A DNA stretch of 64,000 nucleotides from Asanoa ishikariensis (lineage in GTDB: Bacteria; Actinomycetota; Actinomycetes; Mycobacteriales; Micromonosporaceae): NCBI RefSeq assembly GCF_900107455.1, contig NZ_FNQB01000001.1, positions 2,170,001 to 2,234,000 of the forward strand, written 5' to 3'. Position 1 is the first letter of the stretch, and every line of letters starts with the position of its first letter. The translations under genes were made by a program, and so were the position numbers. Positions 6,328-27,610 of this stretch are shown in pieces. Below the pieces are notes generated by a model, which made no database searches, was not told where the DNA came from, and was given only the letters and a program-made list of their open reading frames with translations.

Positions 6328-6487
6328 CGCATCACCGCACGTCAGGGCGTTTTGGCCGGACGAAACCGGCATCTCCGCCGCAGTGCCGCGAAGATTCATT
6401 AGGCAGGGCCACAGCTTTTGTTGCTCCCAGCAAAAGTTATCGCCAAGAGATCCGAAGCTCTTTACACCTACGACGGAAGCTCATACT
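6328..6487 (+). promoter_or_regulatory. Promoter/operator region of the ROK-sugar operon
   Basis: This 160-bp gap is more AT-rich than its surroundings. It contains an inverted repeat, CTTTTG at 6415-6420 and CAAAAG at 6431-6436, about 50 bp before the ROK start. ROK repressors commonly bind AT-rich palindromes at their own promoter, so this is a candidate operator (inference). Confidence 0.4.
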
Positions 6488-11530: not shown

Positions 11531-12595
11531 ATGACCCAGCACGATCCGGTCCGCCGGCGGTTCCTGCTCGGCGGCGCCGCGCTCGGCGCCGGTGCTCTCC
11601 TCGCCGCCTGCACCAGCAACGACAAGGGTGGCGACAACACCAACGCGCAGACCCAGGGCAACAACAACGCCTCGCCGAACGCCAACTCGGCGCCCGGCAA
11701 GAAGGTCACCATCGGCTTCTCCGCCCCCGCGGCCGACCACGGCTGGATCGCGGCCATCACCAGCAACGCGAAGGCACAGGCGGCCGAGTACTCGGACGTC
11801 ACCTTCACCACGGTCGAGGCCGGCGCGGACGCCGCCGCGCAGCGGTCCGCGCTGTCGACGATGATCTCCCAGAAGCCGGACGTGATCGTCCTGCTGCCGC
11901 ACGACGGCAAGGAGCTCAACGCCTTCGGCCTCGAGGCGATGAAGGCCGGCATCCCGGTCGTCAACCTCGACCGCGCCTTCCCCGACGCGCTCGCCTACCG
12001 CCTGCAGATCAAGGGCGACAACTACGGCATGGGCGTCGCGGCCGGCAACTACATCGCCGCGCAGATGAAGGCCAAGGGCGTCAGCAACCCGATCATCGGC
12101 GAGATCGCCGGTATCGACAACCTGGAGCTGACCCAGGAGCGTTCGGCGGGCTTCAAGGCCGCGCTGGCCGCGGCCGGCCTGACGGTCGCCAACCGGCGGG
12201 CGGCGGGCTTCACGGTCGACACCGGTCAGGCCGAGATGAGCCAGCTCCTCCAGGCGCTGCCGAAGATGGACGCGCTCTGGAACCACGACGACGACCAGGG
12301 CATCGGTGTCCTGGCCGCCGCCACCCAGGCCAACCGCAAAGAGTTCCTGATGGTCGGCGGGGCCGGCTCGAAGGCCGCGATCGAGGCCATCCAGGCCGAC
12401 AACTCGGTCCTGAAGTGCACCGTCACGTACAGCCCCTCGATGGCCTCGTCGGCCATCTCGCTCGCTCGCCTCATCGCGCAGGGCAAGGGCATGTCCGACC
12501 TGGTCGAGCTCCAGGTGCCTAAGGAGATCATCCTGGCCTCGGAGACGATTACCAAGGAGAACGCGAGCACCTACCTCCCGCTCGGGTTCAGCTAA
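11531..12595 (+). CDS. Sugar-binding lipoprotein of ABC importer (RbsB-like, periplasmic-binding-protein fold)
   Basis: This is the extracellular sugar-binding component. The N-terminus has a twin-arginine-type signal (RRRFLLGG) leading to a lipobox LLAAC, so it is exported and anchored by a lipidated cysteine near residue 28. A low-complexity Asn/Gly/Thr linker follows. The mature part shows the ribose-binding family pattern: KVTIGFSAPAADHGWIAAI at its start, then SQKPDVIVLLPHD and a conserved D-rich hinge. ATG at 11531 follows a near-perfect AGGAGG ribosome site. The ligand cannot be read from sequence; ribose, xylose, myo-inositol or similar are all possible. Confidence 0.93.
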   Translation: MTQHDPVRRRFLLGGAALGAGALLAACTSNDKGGDNTNAQTQGNNNASPNANSAPGKKVTIGFSAPAADHGWIAAITSNAKAQAAEYSDVTFTTVEAGADAAAQRSALSTMISQKPDVIVLLPHDGKELNAFGLEAMKAGIPVVNLDRAFPDALAYRLQIKGDNYGMGVAAGNYIAAQMKAKGVSNPIIGEIAGIDNLELTQERSAGFKAALAAAGLTVANRRAAGFTVDTGQAEMSQLLQALPKMDALWNHDDDQGIGVLAAATQANRKEFLMVGGAGSKAAIEAIQADNSVLKCTVTYSPSMASSAISLARLIAQGKGMSDLVELQVPKEIILASETITKENASTYLPLGFS

Positions 12596-12611
12596 AAGGG
12601 GGAGACCCACC

Positions 12612-13829
12612 TTGTCCACTGATTCACGTTCCCGTAAGGACCACGAGCTGCGGGTCGGCATGGTCGGCTACTCGTTCATGGGCGCCGCGCACTCCACCGC
12701 GTGGCGCACCGTGAACTCGGCGTTCGACCTGGCGACACAAGCCCGTATGGCCCTGATCTGCGGCCGTGACGAGTCGAAGGTCGCCGGTGCGGCCGCGAAG
12801 CTCGGCTGGGACGCGTACACGACCGACTGGCGCGAGGTCATCGAACGCGACGACATCGACGTGGTCGACGTGTGCACGCCAGGTGACAGCCACGCCGAGA
12901 TCGCGATCGCGGCGCTGGCGGCAGGCAAGCACGTACTGTGCGAGAAGCCGCTGGCGAACTCGGTCGACGAAGCCCGCGCCATGGTCGCCGCGGCGGCCAA
13001 GGCGCAAGCCAGCGGCATCCGGTCGATGTGCGGGTTCAACTACCGCCGCGTTCCGGCCGTCGCGATGATGCGACAGCTCATCGCGTCCGGCCGGATCGGA
13101 GTGATCCGCCACGTCCGCGCGGTCTATCTGCAGGACTGGATCGTCGACCCGCAGTTCCCGCTGGTCTGGCGACTCCAGAAGGACAAGGCAGGCTCCGGTG
13201 CCCTCGGTGACATCGGGGCGCACATCATCGACCTGACCCAGTACGTCACCGGCCAGAAGATCACCGGGGTCAGCGCGCTGACCGAGACGTTCGTCAAGGA
13301 GCGCCCGTTGCCGAGCGAGTCCAGCGGCCTGGCCGCCTCGTCCGGCGACGCGGAGGCTCCGGCCACTGGCCAGGTCACGGTCGACGACGCCGCGCTGTTC
13401 CTGGCCCGGCTCGACGGCGGCGCCATCGCCACCTACGAGGCGAGCCGCTTCGCGATCGGGCGCAAGAACGGCCTCCGGGTCGAGATCAACGGGTCGCTCG
13501 GCTCGCTGGTCTTCGACCTGGAGCGGCTCAACGAGCTGGAGTTCTACGACTCCGCAGCACCCACCGCGGAACAGGGCTTCAACCGGATCCTGATCACCGA
13601 GGCCGACCACCCGTACATGGCCGCCTGGTGGCCGCCCGGCCACATCATCGGCTACGAGCACTCCTTCACCCACGAGATGCGCGACTTCATCGAGGCCATC
13701 GCCACCGGCGTGGACCCGGCACCCTCGTTCCTCGACGCCCTCCAGGTCCAGCTCGTGCTGGACGCGGTGGCGCGGTCGGCGGACCAGGGCACGGTCTGGA
13801 CCGACGTCGAACCGGCGCTCGCTGAATAG
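12612..13829 (+). CDS. Gfo/Idh/MocA-family sugar/inositol oxidoreductase
   Basis: An NAD(P)-dependent dehydrogenase of 405 aa. An N-terminal Rossmann domain (VGMVGYSFMGAAHS) is followed by the family motif CEKPLANS with the catalytic lysine, and a C-terminal beta-sheet domain with GDIGAHIIDL supplying the substrate-contacting His. Known members oxidise myo-inositol, glucose or glycosides, often at C3. The TTG at 12612 is selected because a strong GGGGGAG lies 7 bp upstream. It follows the binding-protein gene by 16 bp, so it is the last gene of the sugar-uptake operon and probably oxidises the imported sugar. Two stem-loops follow it. Confidence 0.93.
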   Translation: MSTDSRSRKDHELRVGMVGYSFMGAAHSTAWRTVNSAFDLATQARMALICGRDESKVAGAAAKLGWDAYTTDWREVIERDDIDVVDVCTPGDSHAEIAIAALAAGKHVLCEKPLANSVDEARAMVAAAAKAQASGIRSMCGFNYRRVPAVAMMRQLIASGRIGVIRHVRAVYLQDWIVDPQFPLVWRLQKDKAGSGALGDIGAHIIDLTQYVTGQKITGVSALTETFVKERPLPSESSGLAASSGDAEAPATGQVTVDDAALFLARLDGGAIATYEASRFAIGRKNGLRVEINGSLGSLVFDLERLNELEFYDSAAPTAEQGFNRILITEADHPYMAAWWPPGHIIGYEHSFTHEMRDFIEAIATGVDPAPSFLDALQVQLVLDAVARSADQGTVWTDVEPALAE

Positions 13830-14435: not shown

Positions 14436-15569
14436 ATGAAAACGGGTGTCTGGTTGGTAGGCGCGCGCGGATCCGTCGCGACCACCAGCATGGTCGGGGC
14501 CTTGGCGCTGCGCGCCGGGCTCGCCGAGCCGACCGGGTGCGTGACTGAGCATCCGGATCTGCGCGGTTCAGCGCTGCCACCGATCGCCGATCTGGTGTTC
14601 GGCGGCCACGATGTCGTCACCACATGCCTGGCCAAGAAGGCGGAGACGCTCGGAGAGGCGGGTGTCGTGCCGCCTCGGCTGGTCGCCGCCGTCGCCGACG
14701 ACCTGGCCGCCGTCGAGGAGAACCTGCGGACCGTACCCGTCGGCGGGACCCAGGCCGAGACGGCGGCCGCGCTGGCCGCCGACATCACCGGGTTCCGCGA
14801 CCGGCTGGGCCTCGATCGGGTCGTGGTCGTCAACGTCTCCACCACCGAGTCATTGCCCGAGCCGCTCCCGGCGCACGGCGACCTCGACCTGCTCCGTGCC
14901 GAGCTGGCCGGCGGCGGTTCGCCGCTGCCGGGCAGCTCGCTGGCCGCCTACGCGGCGTTCACCGCGGGTGCGTCCTACGTGGACTTCACACCGTCGACCG
15001 GTGCCCGGTTGCCGGCGCTGGACGCGCTGGCCCGCGAGACCGGCCTGCCGTACGCGGGCCACGACGGCAAGACCGGCGAGACGCTGGTCAAGTCCGTGCT
15101 CGCGCCGATGTTCGCGCAGCGCAACCTGAACGTGCGTAGCTGGAGCGGGCTCAACCTGCTGGGCGGCGGCGACGGCGCCAACCTGGCCGCGCCCGGGCCC
15201 AACGCCGCGAAGTCCGCCAGCAAGCAGCGGGTGCTCGCGGAGACCCTCGGATACGAGCCCGAAGGCAACACCCGCATCGAGTACGTCGACGACCTGGGCG
15301 ACTTCAAGACCGCGTGGGACCTGGTCAGCTTCGCCGGCTTCCTCGGCGTCCGGATGCGGATGGAGTTCTCCTGGCACGGCTGCGACTCCGCGCTGGCCGC
15401 GCCGCTGATCCTCGACCTGGCCCGGCTGACCAGCGCCGCACACCGGGCCGGCCGGCAAGGACCCCTGACCGAGCTGGCCTTCTTCTTCAAGGACCCGATC
15501 GGCGACGTGCCGCACGGGCTGAGCGAACAGTGGAGCCTGCTGCGCACCTTCGTCGCCGGCCTGAAGTAA
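14436..15569 (+). CDS. Inositol-3-phosphate synthase family protein (Ebo-cluster sugar-phosphate cyclase)
   Basis: Members of this family convert glucose-6-phosphate to a cyclitol phosphate using NAD as an internal redox cofactor. The 377-aa protein has the N-terminal dinucleotide-binding stretch WLVGARGSVATTSMVG. Its core motifs are VVVNVSTTES, GHDGKTGETLVKSVLAP and WSGLNLLGGGDGANLAAP, the counterparts of the NAD- and substrate-binding motifs of myo-inositol-phosphate synthase. It diverges enough that a different cyclitol is possible. ATG at 14436 has GGAGGGG upstream. It is the first gene of an eight-gene operon and overlaps the prenyltransferase gene by one base. Classical ebo clusters carry a dehydroquinate-synthase-like cyclase (EboD) instead, and none is present here. 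Confidence 0.88.
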   Translation: MKTGVWLVGARGSVATTSMVGALALRAGLAEPTGCVTEHPDLRGSALPPIADLVFGGHDVVTTCLAKKAETLGEAGVVPPRLVAAVADDLAAVEENLRTVPVGGTQAETAAALAADITGFRDRLGLDRVVVVNVSTTESLPEPLPAHGDLDLLRAELAGGGSPLPGSSLAAYAAFTAGASYVDFTPSTGARLPALDALARETGLPYAGHDGKTGETLVKSVLAPMFAQRNLNVRSWSGLNLLGGGDGANLAAPGPNAAKSASKQRVLAETLGYEPEGNTRIEYVDDLGDFKTAWDLVSFAGFLGVRMRMEFSWHGCDSALAAPLILDLARLTSAAHRAGRQGPLTELAFFFKDPIGDVPHGLSEQWSLLRTFVAGLK

Positions 15570-16429
15570 TGCCGACGATCCAGGATTACGCGGAGCTGGT
15601 CCGGGCACCGGCCGGGCTCTCGGTGCCCGGCGACGTGGTGGCCGGCGCGGCGGCGGCGGGCGCGCTCAGCGCCCGCACGCCCGCCCTGGCCGGCGCCTCG
15701 GTGCTGCTCTACTGGGCCGGCATGGCCGCCAACGACTGGGCCGACCGCGAGCTCGACGCCACGGAACGCCCGGAGCGACCGATACCCAGCGGCCGGATCG
15801 CTCCCGGCCACGCGCTGGCGGTCGCGGCCGGGCTGACCGCGGCCAGCCTCGCCGTGGCCCGGGCCGCCGGCGGCCGCCGGGCGCTCACGGTCGCGGTGCC
15901 ACTGGCGGCAGCGGTCTGGGCGTACGACGTCAAGGCGAAGAACACCCCGGCCGGCCCGGCGGTGATGGCCGCCTGCCGGGGGTTGGACGTGCTGCTCGGC
16001 GCCACCGGCGGCCGGACGGCCCGCGCGGTGCCGGCGGCGCTGCTGGTCGCCGCGCACACGTACACCGTCACCGCGCTGTCCCGCCGGGAGGTCTCCGGCG
16101 CCGACCCCCTGCTTCCGGTCGTCACCCTGGCCGGCACGGCGCTGGTGGCCGCGGCCGCGGTCCGGCCGGGCCGGCAGCGGGGCTGGCGTGCCCTGGTGCC
16201 GGCGGCGCTGGCCGGCTGGTACGCGGCGCGTTACGGCGCCGCGCAGATCCGGGCGGCGGCCGACCCGTCGGCGCCCGTGGTCCGCGCGGCCGTCGGCGCC
16301 GGCATCACCTCGTTGCCCGCCCTGCAGGGAGCGCTCGCCGCGGGCGCGGGTGCCCCGGCACCGGGCGCCCTGGTCGCCGCCGCCATGCCGCTGGCCCGGC
16401 GGCTGACCCGGAAGGTGGCCGCGACATGA
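15569..16429 (+). CDS. eboC: UbiA-like prenyltransferase, EboC / SCO3242 family
   Basis: This integral membrane prenyltransferase transfers a prenyl chain from a diphosphate to an acceptor. The 286-aa protein has about eight hydrophobic segments. It has the first Asp-rich motif NDWADRELDATERPERPIPSG-like near residues 55-75 and a shorter second motif YDVKAKNTPAGP near 119, both typical of UbiA enzymes. Length and context match the SCO3242/EboC group. It overlaps the cyclase stop (TAATG) and its own stop overlaps the next gene by 4 bp, so expression is tightly coupled. The prenyl donor may come from the polyprenyl synthase at the operon end. The acceptor is unknown; a cyclitol is my inference. 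Confidence 0.9.
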   Translation: MPTIQDYAELVRAPAGLSVPGDVVAGAAAAGALSARTPALAGASVLLYWAGMAANDWADRELDATERPERPIPSGRIAPGHALAVAAGLTAASLAVARAAGGRRALTVAVPLAAAVWAYDVKAKNTPAGPAVMAACRGLDVLLGATGGRTARAVPAALLVAAHTYTVTALSRREVSGADPLLPVVTLAGTALVAAAAVRPGRQRGWRALVPAALAGWYAARYGAAQIRAAADPSAPVVRAAVGAGITSLPALQGALAAGAGAPAPGALVAAAMPLARRLTRKVAAT

Positions 16430-17268
16430 GGTTCGGCTACGGCACCAACGGTTTCGCCAACCACCGGCTGGACGACGCCCTCGCGGTGATCGCCGAGCTC
16501 GGTTACGTGGGCGTCGCCCTCACCCTCGACCACGACCACCTCGACCCGTTCGCGCCGGGACTGGCCGCGCGCACCGGCGCCGTGGCCCGGCGCCTCGCCG
16601 ACCTGGGCCTGGGCGTGGTGATCGAGACCGGCGCCCGCTTCCTGCTCGACCCCTGGCACAAGCACGCGCCGACGCTGCTGCACGACGACCCGGCGCTGCG
16701 GATCGAGTTCCTCCGCCGGGCCGTCGCCGTCGGTGCCGACCTGGGCGCCGAGGCGGTCTCGTTCTGGAGCGGCATCCGCCCGCCCGGAGTCGACGCGGAC
16801 ACGGCCTGGCAACGGCTGGTCGACGGCTGCGCGGCCACCGTCAAGGCGGCCGAGGATCGGGGCGTCACGCTCGGCTTCGAGCCGGAGCCCGGCATGTTCG
16901 TGGAGGACATCGCCGGGTGGCGCCGGCTGCACGCCGCGCTCGGCGCGCCCGCCTCGTTCGGCATCACCCTCGACATCGGACACTGCCGCTGCCTCGAGTC
17001 CGAGCCGGTGTCGGACTGCGTCACCGCGGTCGCCGACCACCTGGTCAACGTCCAGATCGACGACATGCGCCGTGGTACGCACGAACACCTCGAGTTCGGC
17101 ACCGGCGAGATCGACTTCCCGCCGGTGCTGCGTGCCCTGGACGACGCCGGCTACACCGGTCTCGTCGCGGTCGAGCTGCCCCGGCACTCGCACGCGGCAC
17201 CGGACGTCGCCGCGCGCTCCATCGACTTCCTCCGCAAGGCCGCCGAAGCGGGAGAGGAGACGCGATGA
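16426..17268 (+). CDS. Sugar phosphate isomerase/epimerase (xylose-isomerase-like TIM barrel)
   Basis: A 280-aa TIM-barrel enzyme of the AP-endonuclease-2 superfamily. The metal-ligand pattern is present: a Glu in LGFEPEPGMF, Asp-His in TLDIGHCRC, His in THEHLEFG-GEIDF and Glu in VAVELPRHSHA. These enzymes isomerise or epimerise sugars, ketoses or cyclitols such as inosose. It overlaps neighbours by 4 bp on both sides (ATGA), so it is a fixed member of the Ebo-type operon. Together with EboE it makes two TIM-barrel isomerases in one operon, suggesting two rearrangement steps on a sugar-like intermediate. Confidence 0.9.
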   Translation: MRFGYGTNGFANHRLDDALAVIAELGYVGVALTLDHDHLDPFAPGLAARTGAVARRLADLGLGVVIETGARFLLDPWHKHAPTLLHDDPALRIEFLRRAVAVGADLGAEAVSFWSGIRPPGVDADTAWQRLVDGCAATVKAAEDRGVTLGFEPEPGMFVEDIAGWRRLHAALGAPASFGITLDIGHCRCLESEPVSDCVTAVADHLVNVQIDDMRRGTHEHLEFGTGEIDFPPVLRALDDAGYTGLVAVELPRHSHAAPDVAARSIDFLRKAAEAGEETR

Positions 17269-17870
17269 AACCCGACGAGTTGCGCGCCGCACTGGACCGG
17301 GCCGCGGTGGACTGGGTCGACGAGGCCGTCCGCCAGGTGTCGGCCGACCCCGGCGCGATCGCCCGCCTGTTCCCGCGGGCGGCCCGCGCCTGCGGACGAG
17401 CGCCCATCGCCGGGGGGTGGTCCGCCGACGAGGCGGCCCGCGCCCTGCTGCTGGCCGCGCTGCCCGCAGACCGGGTCGCCGCCGAGGCGGACCGGCTCTA
17501 CCGCTACGGCGACGCCAGCGAGAAACGGGCCGTGCTGCGCGCGCTGCCGCTGCTGCCCGTCGGCGAGGCGGGCGTGCCCCTGCTGCACGACGCGATCCGC
17601 ACCAACGACACCCGCCTGGTCGGCGCCGCGCTCGGCACGTACGCCGCGCACCTGGACGCCGCGACCTGGCGTCAGGCGGTGCTCAAGTGCGTCTTCATGG
17701 GTCTCCCGTTGTCCATCGTGGACCGGCTCGACGAGCGGGCCGACGAGGAGCTACGGGTGATGCTCGCCGGGCTGGCGGAGGAACGGGCCGCCGCCGGGCG
17801 GCCGATGGCGGCCGACGCCACCGGGCTGCTCAACCGGTTGGCCGGCACTGCGTTGCGGAAAGAGGCGTGA
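17265..17870 (+). CDS. eboA: EboA domain-containing protein
   Basis: A 201-aa soluble helical protein with the HEAT-like composition of EboA. It includes ASEKRAVLRALPLLPVGEAG, then DAIRTNDTRLVGAALG and a C-terminal LSIVDRLDERADEELRVM. EboA is of unknown biochemical role but is a conserved member of ebo clusters, which in cyanobacteria are needed to move a scytonemin precursor to the periplasm. ATG at 17265 follows GGAGAGGAG and overlaps the upstream stop. Its own stop overlaps eboB by one base. Confidence 0.88.
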   Translation: MKPDELRAALDRAAVDWVDEAVRQVSADPGAIARLFPRAARACGRAPIAGGWSADEAARALLLAALPADRVAAEADRLYRYGDASEKRAVLRALPLLPVGEAGVPLLHDAIRTNDTRLVGAALGTYAAHLDAATWRQAVLKCVFMGLPLSIVDRLDERADEELRVMLAGLAEERAAAGRPMAADATGLLNRLAGTALRKEA

Positions 17871-18718
17871 TGCGAATCTTCGACCCACACATCCACATGA
17901 CCTCGCGTACCACCGACGACTACGAGCGGATGGCCGCCGCCGGCGTGCGTGCGCTGGTCGAGCCGGCGTTCTGGCTCGGTCAGCCGCGCACCTCGGTCGC
18001 CTCGTTCACCGACTACTTCGACTCGCTCGTCGGCTGGGAGCCGTTCCGGGCCGGCCAGTTCGGCATCCGCCACCACGCCACGATCGCGCTGAACCCGAAA
18101 GAGGCCAACGACCCGCGCTGCGCCGGCGTGCTCGACGTGCTGCCGCGCTACCTCGAGAAGGACGGCGTGGTGGCGGTCGGCGAGATCGGCTACGACTCGA
18201 TGACGCCCGAGGAGGACCACGCGTTCGCCGCGCAGCTCGCCCTGGCCATCGAGCACGAGCTGCCGGCGCTGGTGCACACCCCGCACCGGGACAAGGCGCG
18301 CGGCACCGAGCGCACCATCAAGGTGGTCGCCGAGTCCGGCATCGATCCCGGCCGGGTGGTCGTCGACCACCTCAACGAGGTGACGGTGGCCGCCGTCAAG
18401 GACTCGGGGAGCTGGGCGGGCTTCTCCATCTACCCCGACACCAAGATGTCGCCGCCGCGGATGGTGGAGATCCTCAAGCAGTTCGGCACAGAGCGGGTAC
18501 TGGTCAACTCCGCGGCCGACTGGGGCAAGTCGGACCCGTTGCTGACCCGCGAGACCGCCGACCTGATGCTGGCGAGCGGGTTCAGCGAGGACGACGTCGA
18601 CCTGGTGTTCTGGCGCAACCCGGTGGCCTTCTACGGGCAGTCCGGCAAGCTCGACCTCGGCGACAACGAGCCGGGCGCGCTGTTCGAGGGCAACTCGATC
18701 CTGCGCGGGGGCAGCTGA
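17870..18718 (+). CDS. eboB: TatD-family metal-dependent hydrolase EboB
   Basis: A 282-aa amidohydrolase-type TIM barrel. The N-terminal metal site is FDPHIHMTSRTTDDYE (HxH). A Glu in VAVGEIGYDSMTPEEDH, a His in LVHTPHRDK, a His in VVDHLNE and a final Asp in LVNSAADWGKSDP complete the binuclear site. TatD relatives are nucleases or phosphoesterases, but Ebo versions have no proven substrate. One-base overlaps with eboA (TGATG) and eboE show tight coupling. Confidence 0.92.
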   Translation: MRIFDPHIHMTSRTTDDYERMAAAGVRALVEPAFWLGQPRTSVASFTDYFDSLVGWEPFRAGQFGIRHHATIALNPKEANDPRCAGVLDVLPRYLEKDGVVAVGEIGYDSMTPEEDHAFAAQLALAIEHELPALVHTPHRDKARGTERTIKVVAESGIDPGRVVVDHLNEVTVAAVKDSGSWAGFSIYPDTKMSPPRMVEILKQFGTERVLVNSAADWGKSDPLLTRETADLMLASGFSEDDVDLVFWRNPVAFYGQSGKLDLGDNEPGALFEGNSILRGGS

Positions 18719-19911
18719 TGAGGCTGCGCCACCGCGACGGATCGACCGTCCATCTCAGCTACTGCACGAACGTGCACCCGGCGGAGGACTTCGCGGGCAT
18801 CGTCGCGCAGCTCGACACGTACGCGGTCAAGGTGCGTGAGCGCCTCGGCGCCGACCTGCTCGGCCTCGGACTGTGGCTGCCCGCGCCGGTCGCCGCCGAG
18901 TTGGCCGGCTCGGCCCGGCTGCGCCGCCAGCTCCGCGCCGAGCTCGACGCCCGCGGCCTGGAGGTCGTCACGCTCAACGGCTTCCCGTACCAGTCGTTCC
19001 ATGCCCCCGTGGTCAAGCAGGCCGTCTACCACCCGGACTGGACCACGCCGGAGCGCCTCGACTACACGCTGGACCTGGCGCGGGTGCTGCTCGACCTGAT
19101 GCCCGACGACGCCACCCGCGGCTCCATCTCCACGCTGCCGTTCGCCTGGCGCGAGCCCTGGGACCAGGGGCAGTCCGGCGCCGCCGAGCGGGTGCTGGAA
19201 CGGCTGGCCACGGGCCTGACCCGGATGGCCTGGGAGACCGGGCGCGCGGTCCGGGTGGCGTTCGAGCCGGAGCCCGGCTGCGTGGTGGAGTCCACCGAAC
19301 AGGCGGTGCGCCACCTGGCCCCGATCGACACCGACCGGATCGGCGTCTGCCTCGACCTGGCCCATCTGGCCTGTGCCTGGGAGGAGCCGGCCGCGGCGGT
19401 GGGCCGGCTGCGTGATGCCGGAATCCCGGTGGTCAAGGTGCAGGTGTCCGCCGCGTTGGAGGCCGCCGACCCGGTCGCCGCCGCCGACACCTTGCGGGAG
19501 TACGTGGAACCGCGCTTCCTGCACCAGACCCGCTGTGCGACCACGGCCACGGCCGCCGACCCGGCCGACCCGGCGAACGCGGCCGACGACCTCGACGAGG
19601 CCCTCGACCGGGGACTGTCGGGCGGCGCCTGGCGGGTGCACTACCACGTGCCCCTGCACGCCGAACCCGTACCGCCGCTGACCTCGACCGTGCCGGTGCT
19701 GAAAGCGGCGCTGGGCGAGCTCGTCGGCGGCCCCAAGGCGCTCTGCGACCACTTGGACGTCGAGACGTACACGTGGGGCGTGCTGCCGCCCGCCCGTCGG
19801 CCGGAGGGCGACGCGGCGCTGGCCGACGGCATCGCCGCCGAGCTGGCCTTCGCCCGGGACACCCTCGTGGGCCTGGGCCTTTCCGAGCACCGAAGCGAGG
19901 TCGCGGCATGA
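18718..19911 (+). CDS. eboE: EboE, metabolite traffic protein / sugar-isomerase-like TIM barrel
   Basis: A 397-aa protein of the xylose-isomerase-like superfamily, the EboE type. It starts with the family-typical HLSYCTNVHPAEDFAGI and has TLNGFPYQSFHAPVVKQ, then VAFEPEPGC, GVCLDLAHLACAWE and VVKVQVSAAL, which supply the acid and His ligands of the metal site. A C-terminal region with YHVPLHAEPVPPL and CDHLDVETYTWGVLPP is characteristic of EboE. It overlaps eboB by one base and eboF by 4 bp. The 'metabolite traffic' name comes from cyanobacterial export phenotypes; an enzymatic role is more likely from the fold (inference). Confidence 0.92.
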   Translation: MRLRHRDGSTVHLSYCTNVHPAEDFAGIVAQLDTYAVKVRERLGADLLGLGLWLPAPVAAELAGSARLRRQLRAELDARGLEVVTLNGFPYQSFHAPVVKQAVYHPDWTTPERLDYTLDLARVLLDLMPDDATRGSISTLPFAWREPWDQGQSGAAERVLERLATGLTRMAWETGRAVRVAFEPEPGCVVESTEQAVRHLAPIDTDRIGVCLDLAHLACAWEEPAAAVGRLRDAGIPVVKVQVSAALEAADPVAAADTLREYVEPRFLHQTRCATTATAADPADPANAADDLDEALDRGLSGGAWRVHYHVPLHAEPVPPLTSTVPVLKAALGELVGGPKALCDHLDVETYTWGVLPPARRPEGDAALADGIAAELAFARDTLVGLGLSEHRSEVAA

Positions 19912-21332
19912 GCCCCACACCCTTGGTCGTCATCAACGTCGTGGGGCTGACCCCGCGGCTGCTCGCCCGGATGCCCCGCCTGTGCGGGGTCGCCGAGCGC
20001 GGCTTCCAGGCCGAGCTCGGCACCGTGCTGCCCGCCGTCACGTGCTCGGCGCAGGCCACGTTCCTGACCGGCGAACTGCCGTCCGGGCACGGCATCGTCG
20101 GCAACGGCTGGTACTTCCGCGACCTCGGCGAGGTGTTCCTCTGGCGGCAGCACCACGCCCTGATGGGCGGCGAGAAGGTCTGGCAGGCCGCCCGCCGCAC
20201 GCATCCCGGCTACACCGTGGCCAACGTCTGCTGGTGGTACGCGATGGGCGCCGACGTCGACTGGACGGTCACGCCCCGGCCGATCTACTACGCGGACGGG
20301 CGCAAGGAGCCCGACTGCTACACCGACCCGCCGGAGCTGCACGAGGAGCTCACCAGCACGCTCGGCGACTTCCCGCTGTTCACCTACTGGGGCCCGAACG
20401 CGGGCATCGCCTCGTCGCGCTGGATCCGCCGGGCCGCCGAGCAGTTGCTGGCCACCCATCTGCCCGACCTGACACTGGTCTACCTGCCGCACCTGGACTA
20501 CGACCTGCAGCGGTTCGGTCCGGGTGCACCGCAGGCGGCCGCTGCGGCCGCGGCCCTCGACGCCGAGATCGGCCCGCTGCTGGACGCCGCCGACCGGCGC
20601 GGTGCGACCGTGGTGGTCCTCTCGGAGTACGGCATCACCGACGTGTCCCGCCCGGTCGACGTCAACCGGCTGTTGCGGGCCGAGGGCCTGCTGCGGGTCT
20701 ACACCCAGGACGGCATGGAATACCTGGACCCGTGGACCTCGCGGGCGTTCGCGGTCGTCGACCACCAGGTGGCGCACGTGTACGTCAAGGACAAGGCCGA
20801 CCTGGCCGCCGTACGCAAGCTGTGCGAAGGGCTGCCCGGGGTGGCCGAGGTGCTGGACGCGGAAGGAAAGGCGGCCGCGGGACTCGACCACGAGCGGGCC
20901 GGCGAGCTCGTGCTGGTCGCCGAGCCGGACGCCTGGTTCACCTACTACTACTGGCTCGACGACAGCCGCGCGCCCGACTTCGCGCGGCTGGTGGAGATTC
21001 ACCGCAAGCCGGGGTACGACCCGGCGGAGCTGCTCTTCGACCCGGAGAACCCAGGGAAGGCCAAGGGCCGCGCCGCGCTCGCGTTGGCCCGCAAGAAGCT
21101 CGGCATGCGTTACCTGATGAGCGTGGTGGGGCTCGACGCGGGCGCCCGCGCGGTGCGTGGCTCGCACGGCCGGTTGCCGGCGGACGCCGCCGACGCGCCC
21201 GTGCTGCTGTGCACCGATCCGGCCGCGGCGCGTGAGCGGTTCGGTGCGACCGAAGTGAAAGACCTGTTGCTGCGTCTGGCCGGGCTCTTGCCCGCCGACG
21301 CTACGGCCGGCCCGGGGCCGGCGAACGACTGA
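19908..21332 (+). CDS. eboF: Alkaline-phosphatase-superfamily (nucleotide pyrophosphatase-like) protein EboF
   Basis: A 474-aa phosphodiesterase/pyrophosphatase-type enzyme. The nucleophile region is PAVTCSAQATFLTGELPSGH, with a Thr as the probable nucleophile. Metal-binding Asp/His follow in LVYLPHLDYDLQRFGP, VVVLSEYGITDV and VRGSHGRLP. Such enzymes hydrolyse phosphodiester or diphosphate bonds, so a prenyl-phosphate or cyclitol-phosphate intermediate could be dephosphorylated. There is no signal peptide, so it is probably cytoplasmic. It overlaps eboE by 4 bp. The polyprenyl synthase begins 32 bp downstream. Confidence 0.9.
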   Translation: MSPTPLVVINVVGLTPRLLARMPRLCGVAERGFQAELGTVLPAVTCSAQATFLTGELPSGHGIVGNGWYFRDLGEVFLWRQHHALMGGEKVWQAARRTHPGYTVANVCWWYAMGADVDWTVTPRPIYYADGRKEPDCYTDPPELHEELTSTLGDFPLFTYWGPNAGIASSRWIRRAAEQLLATHLPDLTLVYLPHLDYDLQRFGPGAPQAAAAAAALDAEIGPLLDAADRRGATVVVLSEYGITDVSRPVDVNRLLRAEGLLRVYTQDGMEYLDPWTSRAFAVVDHQVAHVYVKDKADLAAVRKLCEGLPGVAEVLDAEGKAAAGLDHERAGELVLVAEPDAWFTYYYWLDDSRAPDFARLVEIHRKPGYDPAELLFDPENPGKAKGRAALALARKKLGMRYLMSVVGLDAGARAVRGSHGRLPADAADAPVLLCTDPAAARERFGATEVKDLLLRLAGLLPADATAGPGPAND

Positions 21333-21364
21333 AGTCGGCCCGTAGGGGCCGCCGAGGAGGAGTG

Positions 21365-22432
21365 ATGACGGTCGACGTCCGCCCCATGGACGCCGCGGAG
21401 CTGCGCGCGCGGTTCGACGCCGAGCTGGCCGCTTTCCTGGAACGCCAGGATCCGGACTGGCCCGACGGCGCGCCGCGTGGCGTCTTCACGACGCTGCACC
21501 GCTTCGTGCTCGCTGGCGGCAAGCGGCTGCGGCCGCTGTTCTGCTACTGGGGTTGGCGTTCGGCCGGGGGCACCGACGGCGCACCGATCATCGCGGCCGC
21601 GGCGGCGCTCGAGCTCTTCCACGCGTTCGCCCTGATCCACGACGACATCATGGACGGCAGCGACCGCCGGCGCGGTGAGCCGTCGGTGCACCGGCTCTTC
21701 GCCGACCTGCACACCCGCTCGTCCTGGCGCGGCGACCCGGCCTCCTACGGGCGCAACACCGCGCTGCTCTGCGGCGACCTGTGCGCGGCCTGGGCCGACC
21801 AGATGTTCCACGAGTGCGGCCTCCTCCCAGAGCAGGTGCACCAGGGCTACGGCGTGTTCGCCATCATGCGTACCGAGGTGATCGCGGGTCAGTACCTGGA
21901 CCTCGTGTCCGGAGTCGGTGACGGCTCGGTGGCCAGCGCCCTGACGGTGATCCGGATGAAGGCCGCCCGCTACACGGTGACCCGGCCGCTGCAGATCGGC
22001 GCCGCGCTGGCCGGTGCCGGCGAGGAGTCGCTGGCCGCCCTGGCGGCGTTCGGCGACCCGCTCGGCGACGCGTTCCAGCTCCGCGACGACGTGCTCGGCG
22101 TGTTCGGCGACCCGGCCGTGACCGGCAAGTCGATCCTCGACGACCTGCGTGAGGGCAAGCCGACCGTGATGATGGCGCTGGCCCGGGGCAGTGCCGACCG
22201 GGACCAGCAGCGCCGGCTCAAGGAGCTGTTCGGCAACCCGGACCTAGATCCAGAGGGTGCCGCAGAGCTGCGGCAGGTCATCATCGACACCGGCGCGCTC
22301 AACCGGATCGAGCAGATGATCAAGGTGCGCACGGATGCGGCGCTGGGTGCCCTCGCGGACGCCCCGGTCTCGGCGGAGGCCCTTCCCGTGCTCACCGCGC
22401 TGGCGGCAGAGGCCGTCGACCGGCAGCTCTAG
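21365..22432 (+). CDS. Polyprenyl diphosphate synthase of the Ebo-type operon
   Basis: A trans-isoprenyl diphosphate synthase of about 355 aa that condenses IPP with an allylic diphosphate. The first Asp-rich motif is LIHDDIMDGSDRRR and the second is LRDDVLGVFGD, with the usual GGKRLRPL near the N-terminus. The residue before the first motif region (AFALIHDD) does not by itself give a reliable chain length. A GAGGAGG precedes ATG at 21365, although a GTG three bases earlier and an ATG at 21386 are possible. Position 32 bp after eboF suggests it supplies the prenyl donor for EboC. A second synthase sits in the hopanoid operon, so the two probably have separate jobs. Confidence 0.92.
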   Translation: MTVDVRPMDAAELRARFDAELAAFLERQDPDWPDGAPRGVFTTLHRFVLAGGKRLRPLFCYWGWRSAGGTDGAPIIAAAAALELFHAFALIHDDIMDGSDRRRGEPSVHRLFADLHTRSSWRGDPASYGRNTALLCGDLCAAWADQMFHECGLLPEQVHQGYGVFAIMRTEVIAGQYLDLVSGVGDGSVASALTVIRMKAARYTVTRPLQIGAALAGAGEESLAALAAFGDPLGDAFQLRDDVLGVFGDPAVTGKSILDDLREGKPTVMMALARGSADRDQQRRLKELFGNPDLDPEGAAELRQVIIDTGALNRIEQMIKVRTDAALGALADAPVSAEALPVLTALAAEAVDRQL

Positions 22433-22609: not shown

Positions 22610-25447
22610 ATGTCTTCAATGGACAATCGTCGCAGGCTGCGCCGTCGAGCCGCTGGCTCCGCGTTGCTGCTTGTCGCCGCCACACTGCACGCAACCCTGG
22701 CCAGCGCGCCAGCCGCGCAGGCCCACACCATCAACGCCACCGACTTCCAGCAGGTGACCCTGGCCAAGGGCGTCGCCGAGATGGGCGAGCCCATGTCGCT
22801 CGCGGTGCTGCCGGACCGCTCGGTCCTGCACACCGCCCGCGGCGGCCAGCTCCGCCGCACCGACGCCAACGGCACCACCACGGTCATCGGCACGCTCCCC
22901 GTCTACACCCACGACGAGGAGGGCCTGCAGGGCGTCGGTGTCGACCCGGGCTTCGCCAGCAACCGCTTCATCTACCTCTACTTCGCTCCGCCGCTGTCCA
23001 CACCGTCCGGTGACGCGCCCGCGACGGGCACGAGCTGGACTGCCTGGCAGGGCGTCAACCGGCTGGCCCGGTTCACCCTCAACGCCGACTGGACGCTCAA
23101 CACGGGCAGCCAGGTCACCGTCCTCGACGTGCCGGCCGACCGCGGCATCTGCTGCCACGTCGGCGGCGACATCGACTTCGACGCGGCCGGCAACCTCTAC
23201 CTGTCGACCGGTGACGACAGCAACCCGTTCGACTCGGCCGGTTACTCGCCGATCGACGAGCGCACCAACCGCAACCCGGCGTACGACGCGCAGCGCTCCG
23301 CGGGCAACACCAACGACCTGCGCGGCAAGCTGCTGCGGATCAAGGTGAACGCCAACGGCAGCTACTCGGTCCCATCGGGCAACCTGTTCGCGGCGGGCAC
23401 GGCCAACACCCGGCCCGAGATCTACGCGATGGGCTTCCGGAACCCGTTCCGGATCAGCGTCGACAAGGGCACCGGCGTGGTCTACGTCGGCGACTACGGC
23501 CCGGACGCCGGCTCCACGGACGCCAACCGCGGCCCGTCCGGCCAGGTCGAGTTCAACCGGGTCACCTCGGCGGGCAACTACGGCTGGCCGTACTGCACCG
23601 GCACCAACACCAGCACCGAGACCTACAACGAGTGGAACTTCGCGACCGGCACCACCGGCGCCAAGTTCAACTGCAGCGGCGGGGCGACGAACAACTCGTT
23701 CCGCAACACCGGCCAGGGCACGCTGCCCGCCGCCCGGCCCGCCTGGATCAAGTACGCCGGCGACAGCGGCACCCCGACGGAGTTCGGTGGTGGGTCCGAG
23801 TCGCCGATGGGTGGCCCGGTCTACCGCTACAACGCGTCGAACACGTCCACCACGAAGTTCCCGCAGGCGTTCGACGGCCAGTTCTTCGCCACCGAGTTCG
23901 GCCGGGGGTGGATCAAGCCGATCCACGTCAACTCCGACGGCACCCGCGGCACGATCGACACCTTCCCCTGGGTCGGCAAGCAGGTGATGGACTCGGCGTT
24001 CGGGCCGGACGGCGCGTACTACGTGCTCGACTACGGCACCGGCTACTTCAACGGTGACGCCAACTCCGCCCTCTACCGCTTCGACTACGTGGCCGGCGGC
24101 AACCGTGCGCCGACCGCCGTGGCCACCGCCCAGCCCACGTCGGGCCAGGCACCGCTCACCGTCGCGTTCTCGTCTGCCGGCTCCACGGACCCTGACGGCG
24201 GCGCGCTGACCTACTCGTGGGCGTTCGGCGACGGCACCACGTCGACGGCCGCGAACCCGTCGAAGACGTACACCAGCAACGGCACGTACACCGCGACGCT
24301 GACCGTGCGTGACCCGCAGGGCGCGACCGGCACGGCGAGCGTGCAGATCGGCGTCGGCAACACCGCGCCGACCGTCAACATCACCCTTCCGGGCAACGGC
24401 CAGCTCTTCAACTTCGGCGACACGATCCCGTTCACGATCAGCGCGAGCGACCCCGAAGACGGCACGGTCAACTGCGCGCGAGCCAAGATGACCTACGTCC
24501 TCGGGCACGACCAGCACGGGCACCAGATCACGTCCGTCAACGGATGCTCCGGGTCGATCACCGTCCCGACCGACGGGGAGCACGACGCGGCGGCGAACAT
24601 CTTCGCGATCTTCGACGCCGAGTACACCGACAACGGCGGGCTGACCACGCACAAGCAGTTCACCCTCCAGCCCAAGCGTCGCCAGGCGGAGCACTACAAG
24701 ACCGCGTCCGGCGTCTCGCTGATCACCAAGACCGGTGCCGAGGGCGGCCGGACGGTCGGCGACATCAACAACGGCGACTGGATCTCGTTCGACCCGTACA
24801 AGATCAATAACGCCACCTCGGTGACCGCTCGGGTCTCCTCCGGCGGCTCCGGCGGCACCCTCCAGGTGCGGGCGGGCTCGGCGACCGGCACGGTCCTCGG
24901 CTCCGTCGCGGTGGCCAACACGGGCAGTTGGGAGACGTTCACCAACGTCACCGCCAACCTGTCCGGGCTGCCGAGCGGCACCACCACGCTCTACCTGACC
25001 TTCGCCGGCGGCACCGGGGCGCTGTTCGACCTGGATGCCTTCACGTTCAACACCTCCACTGGCGGCACCGGCACCGGGCCGGTCGTCGGCCTGGCCGGCA
25101 AGTGCCTGGACGTCCGCAGCGGCGCGACCGCTGACGGCACCCAGATCCAGCTCTACACCTGCAACGGCACCGCCTCGCAGAGCTGGACCCGCACCGGATC
25201 GACGCTGCGCGCACTGGGCAAGTGCCTGGACGTCAGCGGCGGCGGTTCGGCCGACGGCACGAAGATCCAGCTTTACACCTGCAACGGCACGGCGGCCCAG
25301 AACTGGTCGGCCGGCGCCAACAGCTCGCTGGTCAACGCCGCGTCGAACAAGTGCGCCGACGTGAGTGGCAACAACTCGGCCGACAGCACGGTGGTCCACC
25401 TGTGGACCTGCAACGGAGCCGCGAACCAGCGGTGGACCCTGCCTTAA
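22610..25447 (+). CDS. Secreted PQQ-type sugar dehydrogenase with PKD, CBM6 and ricin-type lectin domains
   Basis: A 945-aa secreted protein. A signal peptide (basic start, hydrophobic core, cleavage after AQA near residue 43) is followed by a GSDH-type beta-propeller, residues ~45-495. Its motifs include GGDIDFDAAGNLYLSTGDDS and EIYAMGFRNPFRISVD, as in PQQ-dependent glucose/sorbosone dehydrogenases. A PKD domain (~500-585, with SWAFGDG), an Ig-like region, a CBM6-type carbohydrate-binding module (~695-815) and a ricin-type beta-trefoil (~823-945, QxW repeats QSW, QNW, QRW) follow. ATG at 22610 has GGAAGGG upstream. It likely oxidises polysaccharide ends or sugars outside the cell. A stem-loop separates it from the next, co-oriented secreted protein. 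Confidence 0.9.
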   Translation: MSSMDNRRRLRRRAAGSALLLVAATLHATLASAPAAQAHTINATDFQQVTLAKGVAEMGEPMSLAVLPDRSVLHTARGGQLRRTDANGTTTVIGTLPVYTHDEEGLQGVGVDPGFASNRFIYLYFAPPLSTPSGDAPATGTSWTAWQGVNRLARFTLNADWTLNTGSQVTVLDVPADRGICCHVGGDIDFDAAGNLYLSTGDDSNPFDSAGYSPIDERTNRNPAYDAQRSAGNTNDLRGKLLRIKVNANGSYSVPSGNLFAAGTANTRPEIYAMGFRNPFRISVDKGTGVVYVGDYGPDAGSTDANRGPSGQVEFNRVTSAGNYGWPYCTGTNTSTETYNEWNFATGTTGAKFNCSGGATNNSFRNTGQGTLPAARPAWIKYAGDSGTPTEFGGGSESPMGGPVYRYNASNTSTTKFPQAFDGQFFATEFGRGWIKPIHVNSDGTRGTIDTFPWVGKQVMDSAFGPDGAYYVLDYGTGYFNGDANSALYRFDYVAGGNRAPTAVATAQPTSGQAPLTVAFSSAGSTDPDGGALTYSWAFGDGTTSTAANPSKTYTSNGTYTATLTVRDPQGATGTASVQIGVGNTAPTVNITLPGNGQLFNFGDTIPFTISASDPEDGTVNCARAKMTYVLGHDQHGHQITSVNGCSGSITVPTDGEHDAAANIFAIFDAEYTDNGGLTTHKQFTLQPKRRQAEHYKTASGVSLITKTGAEGGRTVGDINNGDWISFDPYKINNATSVTARVSSGGSGGTLQVRAGSATGTVLGSVAVANTGSWETFTNVTANLSGLPSGTTTLYLTFAGGTGALFDLDAFTFNTSTGGTGTGPVVGLAGKCLDVRSGATADGTQIQLYTCNGTASQSWTRTGSTLRALGKCLDVSGGGSADGTKIQLYTCNGTAAQNWSAGANSSLVNAASNKCADVSGNNSADSTVVHLWTCNGAANQRWTLP

Positions 25448-25455
25448 CCCTGAAT

Positions 25456-25483
25456 GCGGGGGCGTCCGCCCAGGCGCCCCCGC
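25456..25483 (+). terminator. Intercistronic stem-loop between the two secreted-protein genes
   Basis: A perfect 9-bp GC stem (25456-25464 with 25475-25483) with a 10-nt loop starts 8 bp after the dehydrogenase stop and ends 18 bp before the next start. It may be a terminator or attenuator that lowers expression of the second gene. Confidence 0.6.
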
Positions 25484-25501
25484 TCGTCCCTGGGAGTGCA
25501 G

Positions 25502-27610
25502 ATGCGCAGACTCATCCGGACCGCCATCGGCGCGGTTGCCGCCACGTTGGCCGTGATCGCCTGTACGGCACAGGCGGGCCCCGCGAGCGCCGCCGACGCC
25601 GCGTACGACGTCCTGGTCTTCTCGAAAACCGCCGGGTTCCGGCACGACGCGATCCCGGCCGGCATACAGGCCATCCGTGACCTGGGTGCGGCCAACAACT
25701 TCACCGTCACCGCCACCGAGGACGCGAACACGTTCACCGCCAGCGGCCTCTCGCCGTACGAGGTGGTGGTGTTCCTCTCGACCACCGGTGACGTGCTCAA
25801 CGCGTCGCAGCAGACGGCGTTCGAGAACTACATCCGTTCCGGGCGCGGCTACGTCGGCGTGCACGCGGCGGCCGACACCGAGTACGACTGGGCCTGGTAC
25901 GGCAACCTCGTCGGGGCGTACTTCAACTCGCACCCGGCGATCCAGCAGGCCAACATCAAGGTGGAGAACCGGGGCACGGCGGCGACCGCACACCTGCCGC
26001 AGACCTGGACCCGCACCGACGAGCTGTACAACTACCGCACCAACCCCCGATCCACCGCGCGGGTGCTGGCCACTCTCGACGAGTCGTCGTACACCGGCGG
26101 TGGCATGGGCGCCGATCACCCGATCATCTGGTGCAAGGCGTACGACGGCGGGCGCTCGTTCTACACCGGTCTCGGGCACACCCAGGCCTCGTACGCGGAG
26201 GCGAACTTCCGCTCGATGCTGTTGGGTGGCATCCGCTACGCGGCGGCGCGGACCGATGCCGACTGCCGGCCGGAGACCGGCTACACCACTATCTACAATG
26301 GATCGACGACGGGTTGGTCGCAGGCCGGCCCGGGTTCGTTCACCAACAGCGACGCCACGCTCAAGTCGACCGGCGGCATGGGTCTCTACTGGTACAGCGC
26401 CAAGCAGTACACGTCGTACTCGCTGAAGCTCGACTGGAAGATGGACGGCGACGACAACTCCGGCATCTTCATCGGCTTCCCGCCGTCAACCGACCCGTGG
26501 TCCGCGGTCGACAACGGCTACGAGATCCAGATCGACTCCACGGACGCGGCCGACCGCACGACGGGATCGGTCTACACGTTCAAGTCGGCCGACATCACGG
26601 CGCGCGACGCGGCCCTCAACCCGCCGGGGGAGTGGAACACCTACGAGCTTCTGGTCGAAGGTGAGCGGCTGCAGATCTTCCTGAACGGCGTGAAGATCAA
26701 CGACTTCACCAACACGGTCGCGGCGCGCTCGCTGGCCGGGCACATCGGCCTCCAGAACCACGGCACCGGTGACGACGTGTCGTTCCGGAACGTCCGGATC
26801 AAGGAGCTGGGCAGCCAGCCCCCGACCGGCGACGTGACCGTGCAGGCCGAGTCGTTCTCGTCGGCGTCCGGAGTGCAGGCGTTCACCAAGGCGGGCGCCA
26901 ACAACGGGCAGACGCTGGGCTACATCGAGCCGGGCGACTGGGCCGCGTACAACGGCGTCAACGTCTCCGGCGCGACGTCCTTCCGGGCCCGGGTGGTCTC
27001 CGGCGGTGCGGGCGGCGCGATCCAGGTCCGCAACGGCTCGGCCACCGGGACGGTGCTGGGCACGGTCGCGGTGCCGAACACGGGTTCGTGGGACACGTAC
27101 GCCAACGTCTCGGCGGCTCTCTCCGGTGTGCCGTCCGGCACGGCCAACGTGTACCTGACCTTCACCGGTTCGGGCACCGGACTGTTCGATGTGGACGACT
27201 TCACCTTCGTGAAGAGCTCCACGCCGCCCACCGGCACGGGCCCGATCGTGGGCTTGGCCAACAAGTGTCTCGACGTCCGCAGCGGCGCCACGGCGGACGG
27301 CACGCAGATCCAGCTCTACACCTGCAACGGGTCGACGGCGCAGACCTGGACCCGCAACGGCAACACGCTGCGGGCGCTGGGCAAGTGCCTGGACGTCAGC
27401 GGCAGCGGCACGGCCAACGGCACGAAGATCCAGCTCTGGACCTGCAACGGAAGCGGGGCACAGAACTGGTCGGCCGGCGCCAACTCGTCGCTGGTCAACG
27501 CCACCTCGGCCAAGTGCCTGGACGTGAGCGGCAACAACTCCGCGGACAGCACCATCGTCCACCTGTGGGCCTGCAACGGGGCCGCGAACCAGAGGTGGAC
27601 GCTCCCGTAG
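25502..27610 (+). CDS. Secreted ThuA / DUF1080 protein with CBM6 and ricin-type lectin domains
   Basis: A 702-aa secreted protein. A signal peptide ends near residue 30 (PASA-ADAA). Domain 1 (~34-255) is ThuA-like, with DVLVFSKTAGFRHD and YVGVHAAADTEYDW. Domain 2 (~259-440) is DUF1080, a laminin-G-like fold now linked to 3-keto-disaccharide hydrolysis, with KMDGDDNSGIFIGFP. A CBM6-type module (~442-570) and a ricin-type beta-trefoil (~579-702) end the protein and are very similar to those of the preceding gene. The domains point to extracellular processing of (possibly 3-keto) glycans. ATG at 25502 is chosen for the signal peptide and the GGGAG upstream. Confidence 0.9.
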   Translation: MRRLIRTAIGAVAATLAVIACTAQAGPASAADAAYDVLVFSKTAGFRHDAIPAGIQAIRDLGAANNFTVTATEDANTFTASGLSPYEVVVFLSTTGDVLNASQQTAFENYIRSGRGYVGVHAAADTEYDWAWYGNLVGAYFNSHPAIQQANIKVENRGTAATAHLPQTWTRTDELYNYRTNPRSTARVLATLDESSYTGGGMGADHPIIWCKAYDGGRSFYTGLGHTQASYAEANFRSMLLGGIRYAAARTDADCRPETGYTTIYNGSTTGWSQAGPGSFTNSDATLKSTGGMGLYWYSAKQYTSYSLKLDWKMDGDDNSGIFIGFPPSTDPWSAVDNGYEIQIDSTDAADRTTGSVYTFKSADITARDAALNPPGEWNTYELLVEGERLQIFLNGVKINDFTNTVAARSLAGHIGLQNHGTGDDVSFRNVRIKELGSQPPTGDVTVQAESFSSASGVQAFTKAGANNGQTLGYIEPGDWAAYNGVNVSGATSFRARVVSGGAGGAIQVRNGSATGTVLGTVAVPNTGSWDTYANVSAALSGVPSGTANVYLTFTGSGTGLFDVDDFTFVKSSTPPTGTGPIVGLANKCLDVRSGATADGTQIQLYTCNGSTAQTWTRNGNTLRALGKCLDVSGSGTANGTKIQLWTCNGSGAQNWSAGANSSLVNATSAKCLDVSGNNSADSTIVHLWACNGAANQRWTLP

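Follow-up and report, generated by a model that had tools for sequence, protein, structure and literature searches.

An ebo-type operon of Asanoa ishikariensis with an inositol phosphate synthase-like cyclase and a TIM-barrel isomerase in place of EboD

Introduction

A stretch of 64,000 nucleotides from Asanoa ishikariensis (G000:C2:2170001-2234000, hereafter the window; the genome is 9.09 Mb and 99.96% complete) contains an ebo-type operon that lacks the cyclase EboD. What takes the place of EboD, and what could such a pathway make? We find a second ebo form, in which a myo-inositol phosphate synthase (MIPS) and a TIM-barrel isomerase (Iso) stand in place of EboD. The idea of a prenylated cyclitol is already published for the EboD form, for which an isoprenoid-cyclitol product was proposed in PMC5133447 (2016). 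The product of ebo, a gene cluster widespread in bacteria, is still described as unknown in the ebo papers of 2016-2022, as far as their passages on it go, partly since the substrate and product of EboD are unknown. The chemistry of MIPS is known; therefore the MIPS form makes the product question directly testable and gives it a concrete chemical starting point.

Among the 148 taxa of PMC5133447, one Leeuwenhoekiella and two Planctomycetes are noted to have ebo loci that lack eboD; the passage on them names no replacement. The word "inositol" appears 0 times in the main text of PMC5133447, PMC6282210 and PMC9235831. No description of a MIPS-type ebo operon was found in the literature searched, which left out most subscription journals.

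Results and Discussion

The operon

Eight genes on the + strand span 14436-22432 of the window. Successive genes overlap by 1, 4, 4, 1, 1 and 4 bp, followed by one 32-bp gap. The coordinates, strand and overlaps given in the initial annotation proved exact to the base. The genes are as follows.

14436..15569, +, MIPS-like cyclase of the inositol-3-phosphate synthase superfamily (PF07994 155 bits, PF01658 107 bits, over the cut-offs)
15569..16429, +, UbiA-superfamily prenyltransferase of the SCO3242 family, the EboC counterpart (NF045897 376 bits, cut-off 260; 1-bp overlap)
16426..17268, +, Iso, xylose-isomerase-like TIM barrel (PF01261 131 bits; 4-bp overlap)
17265..17870, +, EboA-domain protein (NF035938 157 bits, cut-off 50; 4-bp overlap)
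17870..18718, +, EboB, TatD-like metallohydrolase (PF01026; 1-bp overlap)
18718..19911, +, EboE (NF035939 415 bits, cut-off 250; 1-bp overlap)
19908..21332, +, EboF, alkaline-phosphatase/NPP (nucleotide pyrophosphatase/phosphodiesterase) superfamily, altered metal site (PF01663 224 bits; 4-bp overlap)
21365..22432, +, polyprenyl diphosphate synthase, ATG start (PF00348 163 bits; 32-bp gap before it)

Relatives of EboA, EboB, EboE and EboF are clustered here, as expected of an ebo operon, the first and third recognized by NF035938 and NF035939, EboB and EboF by hidden Markov models (HMMs), trees and signature residues. The operon resembles eboABCDEF as described in PMC5133447 in having an EboA domain, relatives of EboB, UbiA, EboE and EboF, tight clustering and a sugar-phosphate cyclase. 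It departs from that description in having MIPS and the TIM-barrel isomerase instead of EboD, a prenyltransferase of the SCO3242 family, and in some lineages a polyprenyl synthase.

EboD is absent and the two cyclases exclude each other

None of the eight genes encodes a dehydroquinate synthase (DHQS)-type protein. The single DHQS match that PF01761 gives in the genome is AroB (TIGR01357 335 bits, over the cut-off), which lies on another contig. With the EboD model NF004852 (cut-off 333), AroB scores 171 bits, and three EboD proteins tested score 564-585 bits. An EboD hidden elsewhere in the genome was thus sought by both models, and only AroB was found. The absence of EboD, claimed at first for the operon, is therefore borne out genome-wide.

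To compare loci, 209 stretches around EboE were collected: the window, 8 plasmid records, 80 from named genomes and 120 from actinobacterial relatives. For the named genomes, the best 80 of 577 confirmed stretches were kept; the query, led by a Deinococcus EboE, biases this set to the EboD side. Genes were classed with home-made HMMs. Stretches in which two or more of UbiA, EboB and EboF lie near EboE (n = 180) were taken as core loci, and the 29 with fewer were left out. These comprise 17 actinobacterial lone EboE-like genes without UbiA, EboB, EboF, EboA, Iso or a cyclase; L126, with UbiA, Iso and a polyprenyl synthase and no cyclase; one stretch with MIPS; and, outside the Actinobacteria, six with EboD and four with neither cyclase.

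Among the 180 core loci, 97 carry MIPS (from 92 genomes or records), 74 carry EboD, 9 carry neither and none carries both. The mutual exclusivity of EboD-like and MIPS-like enzymes that the initial annotation had suggested surveying for thus holds throughout the core loci. Iso (over 150 bits) is found in 94 of the 97 MIPS loci, the others being L161, L163 and L177, vs 0 of the 74 EboD loci. One gene, EboD, is exchanged for two, MIPS and Iso. The earlier view that one cyclase replaces the other stands in so far as MIPS takes the EboD slot, a point that is well supported, and needs correction in that the replacement is the pair, not MIPS alone.

The exact co-directional order MIPS-UbiA-Iso-EboA-EboB-EboE-EboF recurs in 92 of the 97 MIPS loci, and MIPS lies beside ebo genes in actinobacterial genomes of 14 family groups. 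Because of this recurrence and this order, the linkage between MIPS and the ebo genes is more than chance. In 9 of the 209 stretches Iso and EboA share one open frame, consistent with the isomerase-EboA fusions that PMC5133447 mentions in Actinobacteria.

The exclusion was followed beyond the loci, searching 80 of 108 listed genomes for EboD and 50 of 52 listed records for PF07994. The 80 EboE-matching genomes include 76 with MIPS in the fetched stretch, G438 with an EboD-type locus, and G024, G476 and G509 with neither. NF004852 exceeded its cut-off in one of the 80, which is G438, and G438 has no match to the cluster MIPS profile. On the EboD side, PF07994 matches occur in 11 of 49 named genomes, 46 of these 49 having an EboD-bearing locus, and also on the Gemmatirosa plasmid treated below. 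Ten of those 11 proteins score 240-277 bits on the MIPS model vs 450 or more for most cluster MIPS, and so look like generic paralogues.

Several stretches without a cyclase belong to genomes that carry MIPS elsewhere. A cluster-type MIPS (503-589 bits) occurs outside the ebo stretch in five genomes: on another contig in G515, G010, G044 and G023, where the ebo stretches lie on short contigs, and farther along the same contig in G024. G186 and G715 each have two copies, one with MIPS and a second (L143 and L173, respectively) without a cyclase. G336 (L158) has a MIPS (337) adjoining Iso (371) elsewhere in the genome, and G476 (L199) has elsewhere only a MIPS of 340-345 bits.

Two loci outside the ebo set, L260 (Methylobacterium bullatum) and L261 (Roseomonas haemaphysalidis), hold a different cluster that also pairs MIPS with an Iso-type isomerase (333-335 bits). 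In L261 the pair sits among Gfo/Idh/MocA, YcaO, MBL-fold, methyltransferase, GT4 and PIG-L genes. MIPS and Iso may form a module that can be reused outside ebo.

The cyclase retains the residues of an inositol phosphate synthase

The best solved match of the window MIPS is the Archaeoglobus enzyme 1u1i (E 9e-70, 239 bits), an enzyme with roles in osmolyte and lipid inositol. The window protein retains N255, K278 and K367, the positions altered in 3qw2, 3qvw and 3qvx, together with D225, D261, K274 and K306 (numbering counted from the 1u1i alignment), so that all seven residues checked are kept. The corresponding window residues, D210, N240, D246, K259, K263, K291 and K352, are aligned and invariant across 21 cluster MIPS. 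These seven residues are taken to be catalytic. With these residues intact, the cluster MIPS is probably active as an inositol-phosphate synthase. The five-membered-cyclitol-phosphate synthase 6k96, presumably Ari2 and used in a secondary pathway, is also a member of the MIPS superfamily. It was considered as the closest relative and set aside, as it reaches only 51 bits to the window MIPS vs 239 for 1u1i.

In a tree of 34 rows, the actinobacterial, Gemmatirosa and haloarchaeal MIPS (Halomarina included) group with Archaeoglobus MIPS with 100/100 support, the Archaeoglobus branch being long; generic paralogues and an Acidobacteria/YcaO-linked type stand apart from the cluster MIPS. Searches of 199 genomes of Acidobacteriota (best 304 bits) and 301 of Chloroflexota (best 325 bits) gave no cluster-type MIPS near the range of 503-589 bits that the same profile gives in seven genomes. 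No other ebo gene was seen in ten acidobacterial stretches of 2.9-4.2 kb (L246-L255).

The predicted product of this active site, inositol 1-phosphate, is an ordinary one, and the MIPS might then supply inositol for phosphatidylinositol, mycothiol or an osmolyte, its linkage to ebo being due to chance or regulation. The genome, however, has its own mycothiol-type INO1 at C2:132879 (TIGR03450 659 bits, cut-off 638), a model on which the window MIPS scores 30 bits, and further MIPS-superfamily paralogues exist besides. The operon MIPS is therefore an extra copy, and a housekeeping role for it was thought unlikely. Moreover, where a core locus lacks EboD, it contains MIPS in 97 of 106 cases, and the MIPS-Iso pair also occurs in haloarchaeal clusters. 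We consider the ordinary supply of inositol very improbable. One of the paralogues, at G000:C4:1428234-1429148 (L273), is a divergent MIPS-superfamily gene with 163 bits on TIGR03450.

The same module sits on unlike backbones

On plasmid 2 of Gemmatirosa kalamazoonensis (Gemmatimonadota; L031), MIPS (463) and Iso (370) adjoin UbiA, EboF and EboB, and EboE is divergent. In a careful EboE tree of 38 rows, Gemmatirosa groups with 18 EboD rows at 100/100, and a quick tree of 46 rows agrees. All MIPS rows come together in 0 of 200 EboE bootstrap trees, and the approximately unbiased test gives P (p-AU) of 0.047 for one MIPS clade. The Gemmatirosa EboB shares 76% identity with its counterpart in a Thermomicrobiales bacterium of the EboD type, and the EboB tree (32 rows) rejects one MIPS clade with p-AU 1.3e-31. 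A quick EboF tree places Gemmatirosa with three EboD rows (support 98). Since the Gemmatirosa EboE, EboB and EboF group with the EboD lineage, we conclude from these trees that one two-gene module is found on two dissimilar backbones. That the cyclase is exchanged repeatedly while its partner genes stay the same is assay-independent evidence that the pathway is there to use a cyclitol.

Haloarchaeal clusters came to light when plasmids were searched by tblastn with the Gemmatirosa MIPS as query. On plasmids of Halobaculum salinum, Natronococcus sp. CG52 and Halocatena salina, MIPS (452-461) adjoins EboF, EboB, UbiA and two Iso-like genes. In Haladaptatus pallidirubidus the stretch holds two Iso genes with EboF, EboB and UbiA and no MIPS, and in Halomarina BND7 the MIPS is surrounded by glycosyltransferases instead of ebo genes. 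On the EboC and SCO3242 models the UbiA of Halobaculum reaches 178 and 170, respectively, both under the cut-off. The haloarchaeal EboF proteins share the odd signature described below for EboF, which argues for true orthology. With them, the range of ebo-like clusters in our survey reaches into the Archaea.

Prenyl transfer and the predicted product

The operon prenyltransferase had been labeled EboC. By the NCBI cut-offs this label falls, for the protein scores 137 bits on the EboC model NF035940 (cut-off 250) and belongs to the SCO3242 family (NF045897). In Streptomyces coelicolor, SCO3242 and SCO3243 are listed under the calcium-dependent antibiotic (CDA) cluster as a putative transferase and a myo-inositol phosphate synthase (PMC3610822). 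The transferase is the namesake of the NCBI family to which the window prenyltransferase belongs, and the MIPS has the next gene number. The pair is not described as ebo in that listing, and the likeness rests on the NCBI family model and the gene names. From these, SCO3242-SCO3243 may be an ebo operon beside the CDA cluster. A transferase-MIPS pair has thus long been visible, having been named in PMC3610822.

The N and the three D of the NDxxDxxxD motif are kept in 172/172 aligned UbiA relatives. Up to E 0.01, the solved relatives of the window protein are digeranylgeranylglyceryl phosphate (DGGGP) synthase and chlorophyll synthase only. DGGGP synthase is an O-prenylating enzyme. The closest model to the polyprenyl diphosphate synthase is the farnesyl/geranyl diphosphate synthase model NF042416 (308 bits, under the cut-off of 600). 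A dedicated prenyl donor synthase, as first annotated, is indeed in the operon; across loci it is accessory only, being present in 25 of the 97 MIPS stretches vs 0 of the 74 EboD stretches. Its gene is downstream in most members of the window's family, whereas in another family it precedes MIPS.

These features suggest the following pathway. The archaeal-type MIPS, judged by its catalytic residues, would perform the cyclization step of EboD, converting glucose 6-phosphate to inositol 1-phosphate, with Iso as its likely partner given their co-occurrence and the EboD-type loci without Iso. The cyclitol, as the phosphate or after remodeling by Iso, EboE or EboB, would be the most likely prenyl acceptor of UbiA. 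The synthase encoded in the operon would supply the donor here, probably a short prenyl diphosphate, and the product would be a membrane-anchored prenyl-cyclitol. EboF is probably not a standard two-metal phosphatase, and the shared genes would act downstream on whichever ring the interchangeable cyclase module supplies. A prenylated cyclitol is thus a plausible product of the MIPS form. That the operon represents a second chemical form of ebo, working through MIPS-Iso cyclization and UbiA prenylation to a membrane-anchored prenyl-cyclitol, seems to us a little better than an even prospect. The exclusion of MIPS and EboD, the cluster-type MIPS elsewhere in five genomes, MIPS and Iso on a backbone of the EboD lineage and in haloarchaeal clusters, the intact MIPS residues, the separate INO1 and the DGGGP synthase among the UbiA relatives all support it.

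Several points weigh against this pathway. The C6 product of MIPS and that of EboD, thought to be C7, differ, and the final products may differ accordingly. The in vitro farnesylation of an aromatic, 8-hydroxyquinoline-2-carboxylic acid, by a relative of EboC (PMC9235831, 2022) speaks against a simple cyclitol as acceptor. Should EboF leave the phosphate in place, the inositol phosphate would have to be processed in some other way. Gemmatirosa is one genome, the EboE p-AU (0.047) is marginal, and the well-supported EboE branches alone force only one change, although the EboB result is decisive. The UbiA trees (two quick, one careful) do not settle the placement of Gemmatirosa, where UbiA may or may not have travelled with the cyclase: one quick tree gave a single MIPS clade with support 88, and the careful tree gives it in 34% of 200 bootstraps with p-AU 0.418. 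The haloarchaeal clusters are without EboA and without a separate EboE by the home-made models. Finally, L158 and L199 are cores without either cyclase in the locus, and L036 is a further exception.

The farnesylation bears also on a different pathway, in which the ring is aromatized before prenylation, the cyclase module and the TIM-barrel and TatD enzymes making a small polyhydroxy-aromatic that UbiA prenylates. Many UbiA enzymes prenylate aromatics, and Iso weakly matches IolE, IolI and epimerase-type enzymes, a group that includes dehydratases of keto-inositols. The EboC relative concerned is Ubi-297, and the account of the enzyme in PMC9235831 does not state that its product occurs in vivo. 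The conserved gene order, moreover, holds no dedicated oxidase or dehydrogenase, Gfo being found in only 22 of 98 MIPS-bearing stretches. We regard aromatization as unlikely.

Active sites of EboF and EboB

EboF proteins of the survey over 450 bits and three haloarchaeal ones (n = 190) were aligned with NPP 2gsn, which we take to be of Xanthomonas type, and with phosphonoacetate hydrolase. The Thr nucleophile and one Asp are kept in 190/190 and the C-terminal His in 186/190 (4 gaps). The first Asp is replaced by Val (188/190), a His by Gln (188/190) and DHG by EYG (E 189/190, Y 190/190). The presumed two-metal ligand set of the NPP/alkaline-phosphatase superfamily is thus not found in EboF, in the MIPS and EboD forms alike. 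Because most of the canonical ligands are replaced, the phosphatase label is doubtful, and EboF is unlikely to be a plain two-metal phosphatase. The altered site calls a standing annotation into question. In EboB, by contrast, the metal-site positions examined read HxH, E, H, H, H and D in 174/174 proteins, and these residues are presumably the metal ligands.

Neighboring genes and a possible role of the product

Three accessory genes flank the operon in the window.

12612..13829, +, Gfo/Idh/MocA dehydrogenase, upstream (NF052479 370 bits, below the cut-off)
22610..25447, +, pyrroloquinoline quinone (PQQ)-sugar-dehydrogenase-like protein (GSDH) with a signal-peptide-like start (PF07995 117 bits)
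25454..27610, +, presumably a ThuA-like protein, by its sequence (homologue in 43/97 MIPS-type and 7/74 EboD-type stretches)

Of the 22 MIPS-bearing stretches with a Gfo homologue, 14 belong to family f1, the window not counted; among EboD-bearing stretches the homologue occurs in 9 of 80. A GSDH homologue is found in 60 of the 97 MIPS-type stretches (mostly about 20 kb, seven family groups), 7 of the 74 EboD-type and 1 of the 3 haloarchaeal ebo stretches; depending on the family it is upstream or downstream (57 placed). PF07995 has 20 matches in the 9.09 Mb of the genome, or about 0.04 expected per 20 kb, which serves as a yardstick only, as it compares two methods and comes from one genome.

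The sampled loci have EboD in most non-actinobacterial cases and MIPS with Iso in Actinobacteria, Gemmatirosa and haloarchaea. The ebo genes might form a modular, cross-domain lipid pathway with an exchangeable ring module, in which a prenyl-inositol-type membrane lipid of the MIPS form serves secreted sugar-oxidizing enzymes or exported metabolites; we offer this as a tentative and rather doubtful extension.

The operon could also make a lipid carrier or export aid, not an end product, as proposed for the scytonemin monomer of Nostoc, the identity of the cyclase being then of minor importance. The ebo genes are reported to be needed to move that monomer to the periplasm (PMC6282210, 2018), and the frequent GSDH and ThuA-like genes near MIPS-type loci, with a ScyD/ScyE-family gene at L024, point the same way. 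The tight exchange of EboD for MIPS and Iso suggests that ring chemistry matters, and a carrier is compatible with the prenyl-cyclitol pathway, since the prenyl-cyclitol could itself be the carrier. As a separate account, a carrier of this kind appears quite unlikely.

The ScyD/ScyE-family gene of L024, a Streptomyces plasmid, is at 6207-7406, upstream of MIPS-type ebo genes, and recalls the cyanobacterial scytonemin link. In L028, an EboD-type alphaproteobacterial locus, two Gfo/Idh/MocA dehydrogenases (6753-8799) stand directly before eboD; sugar or cyclitol oxidation may therefore belong to some ebo loci. On a plasmid of Streptomyces sp. NBC_01244 (L026), a lone EboE gene (11989-13167) lies within a type II polyketide cluster, and 16 further actinobacterial stretches have EboE-like genes without other ebo genes.

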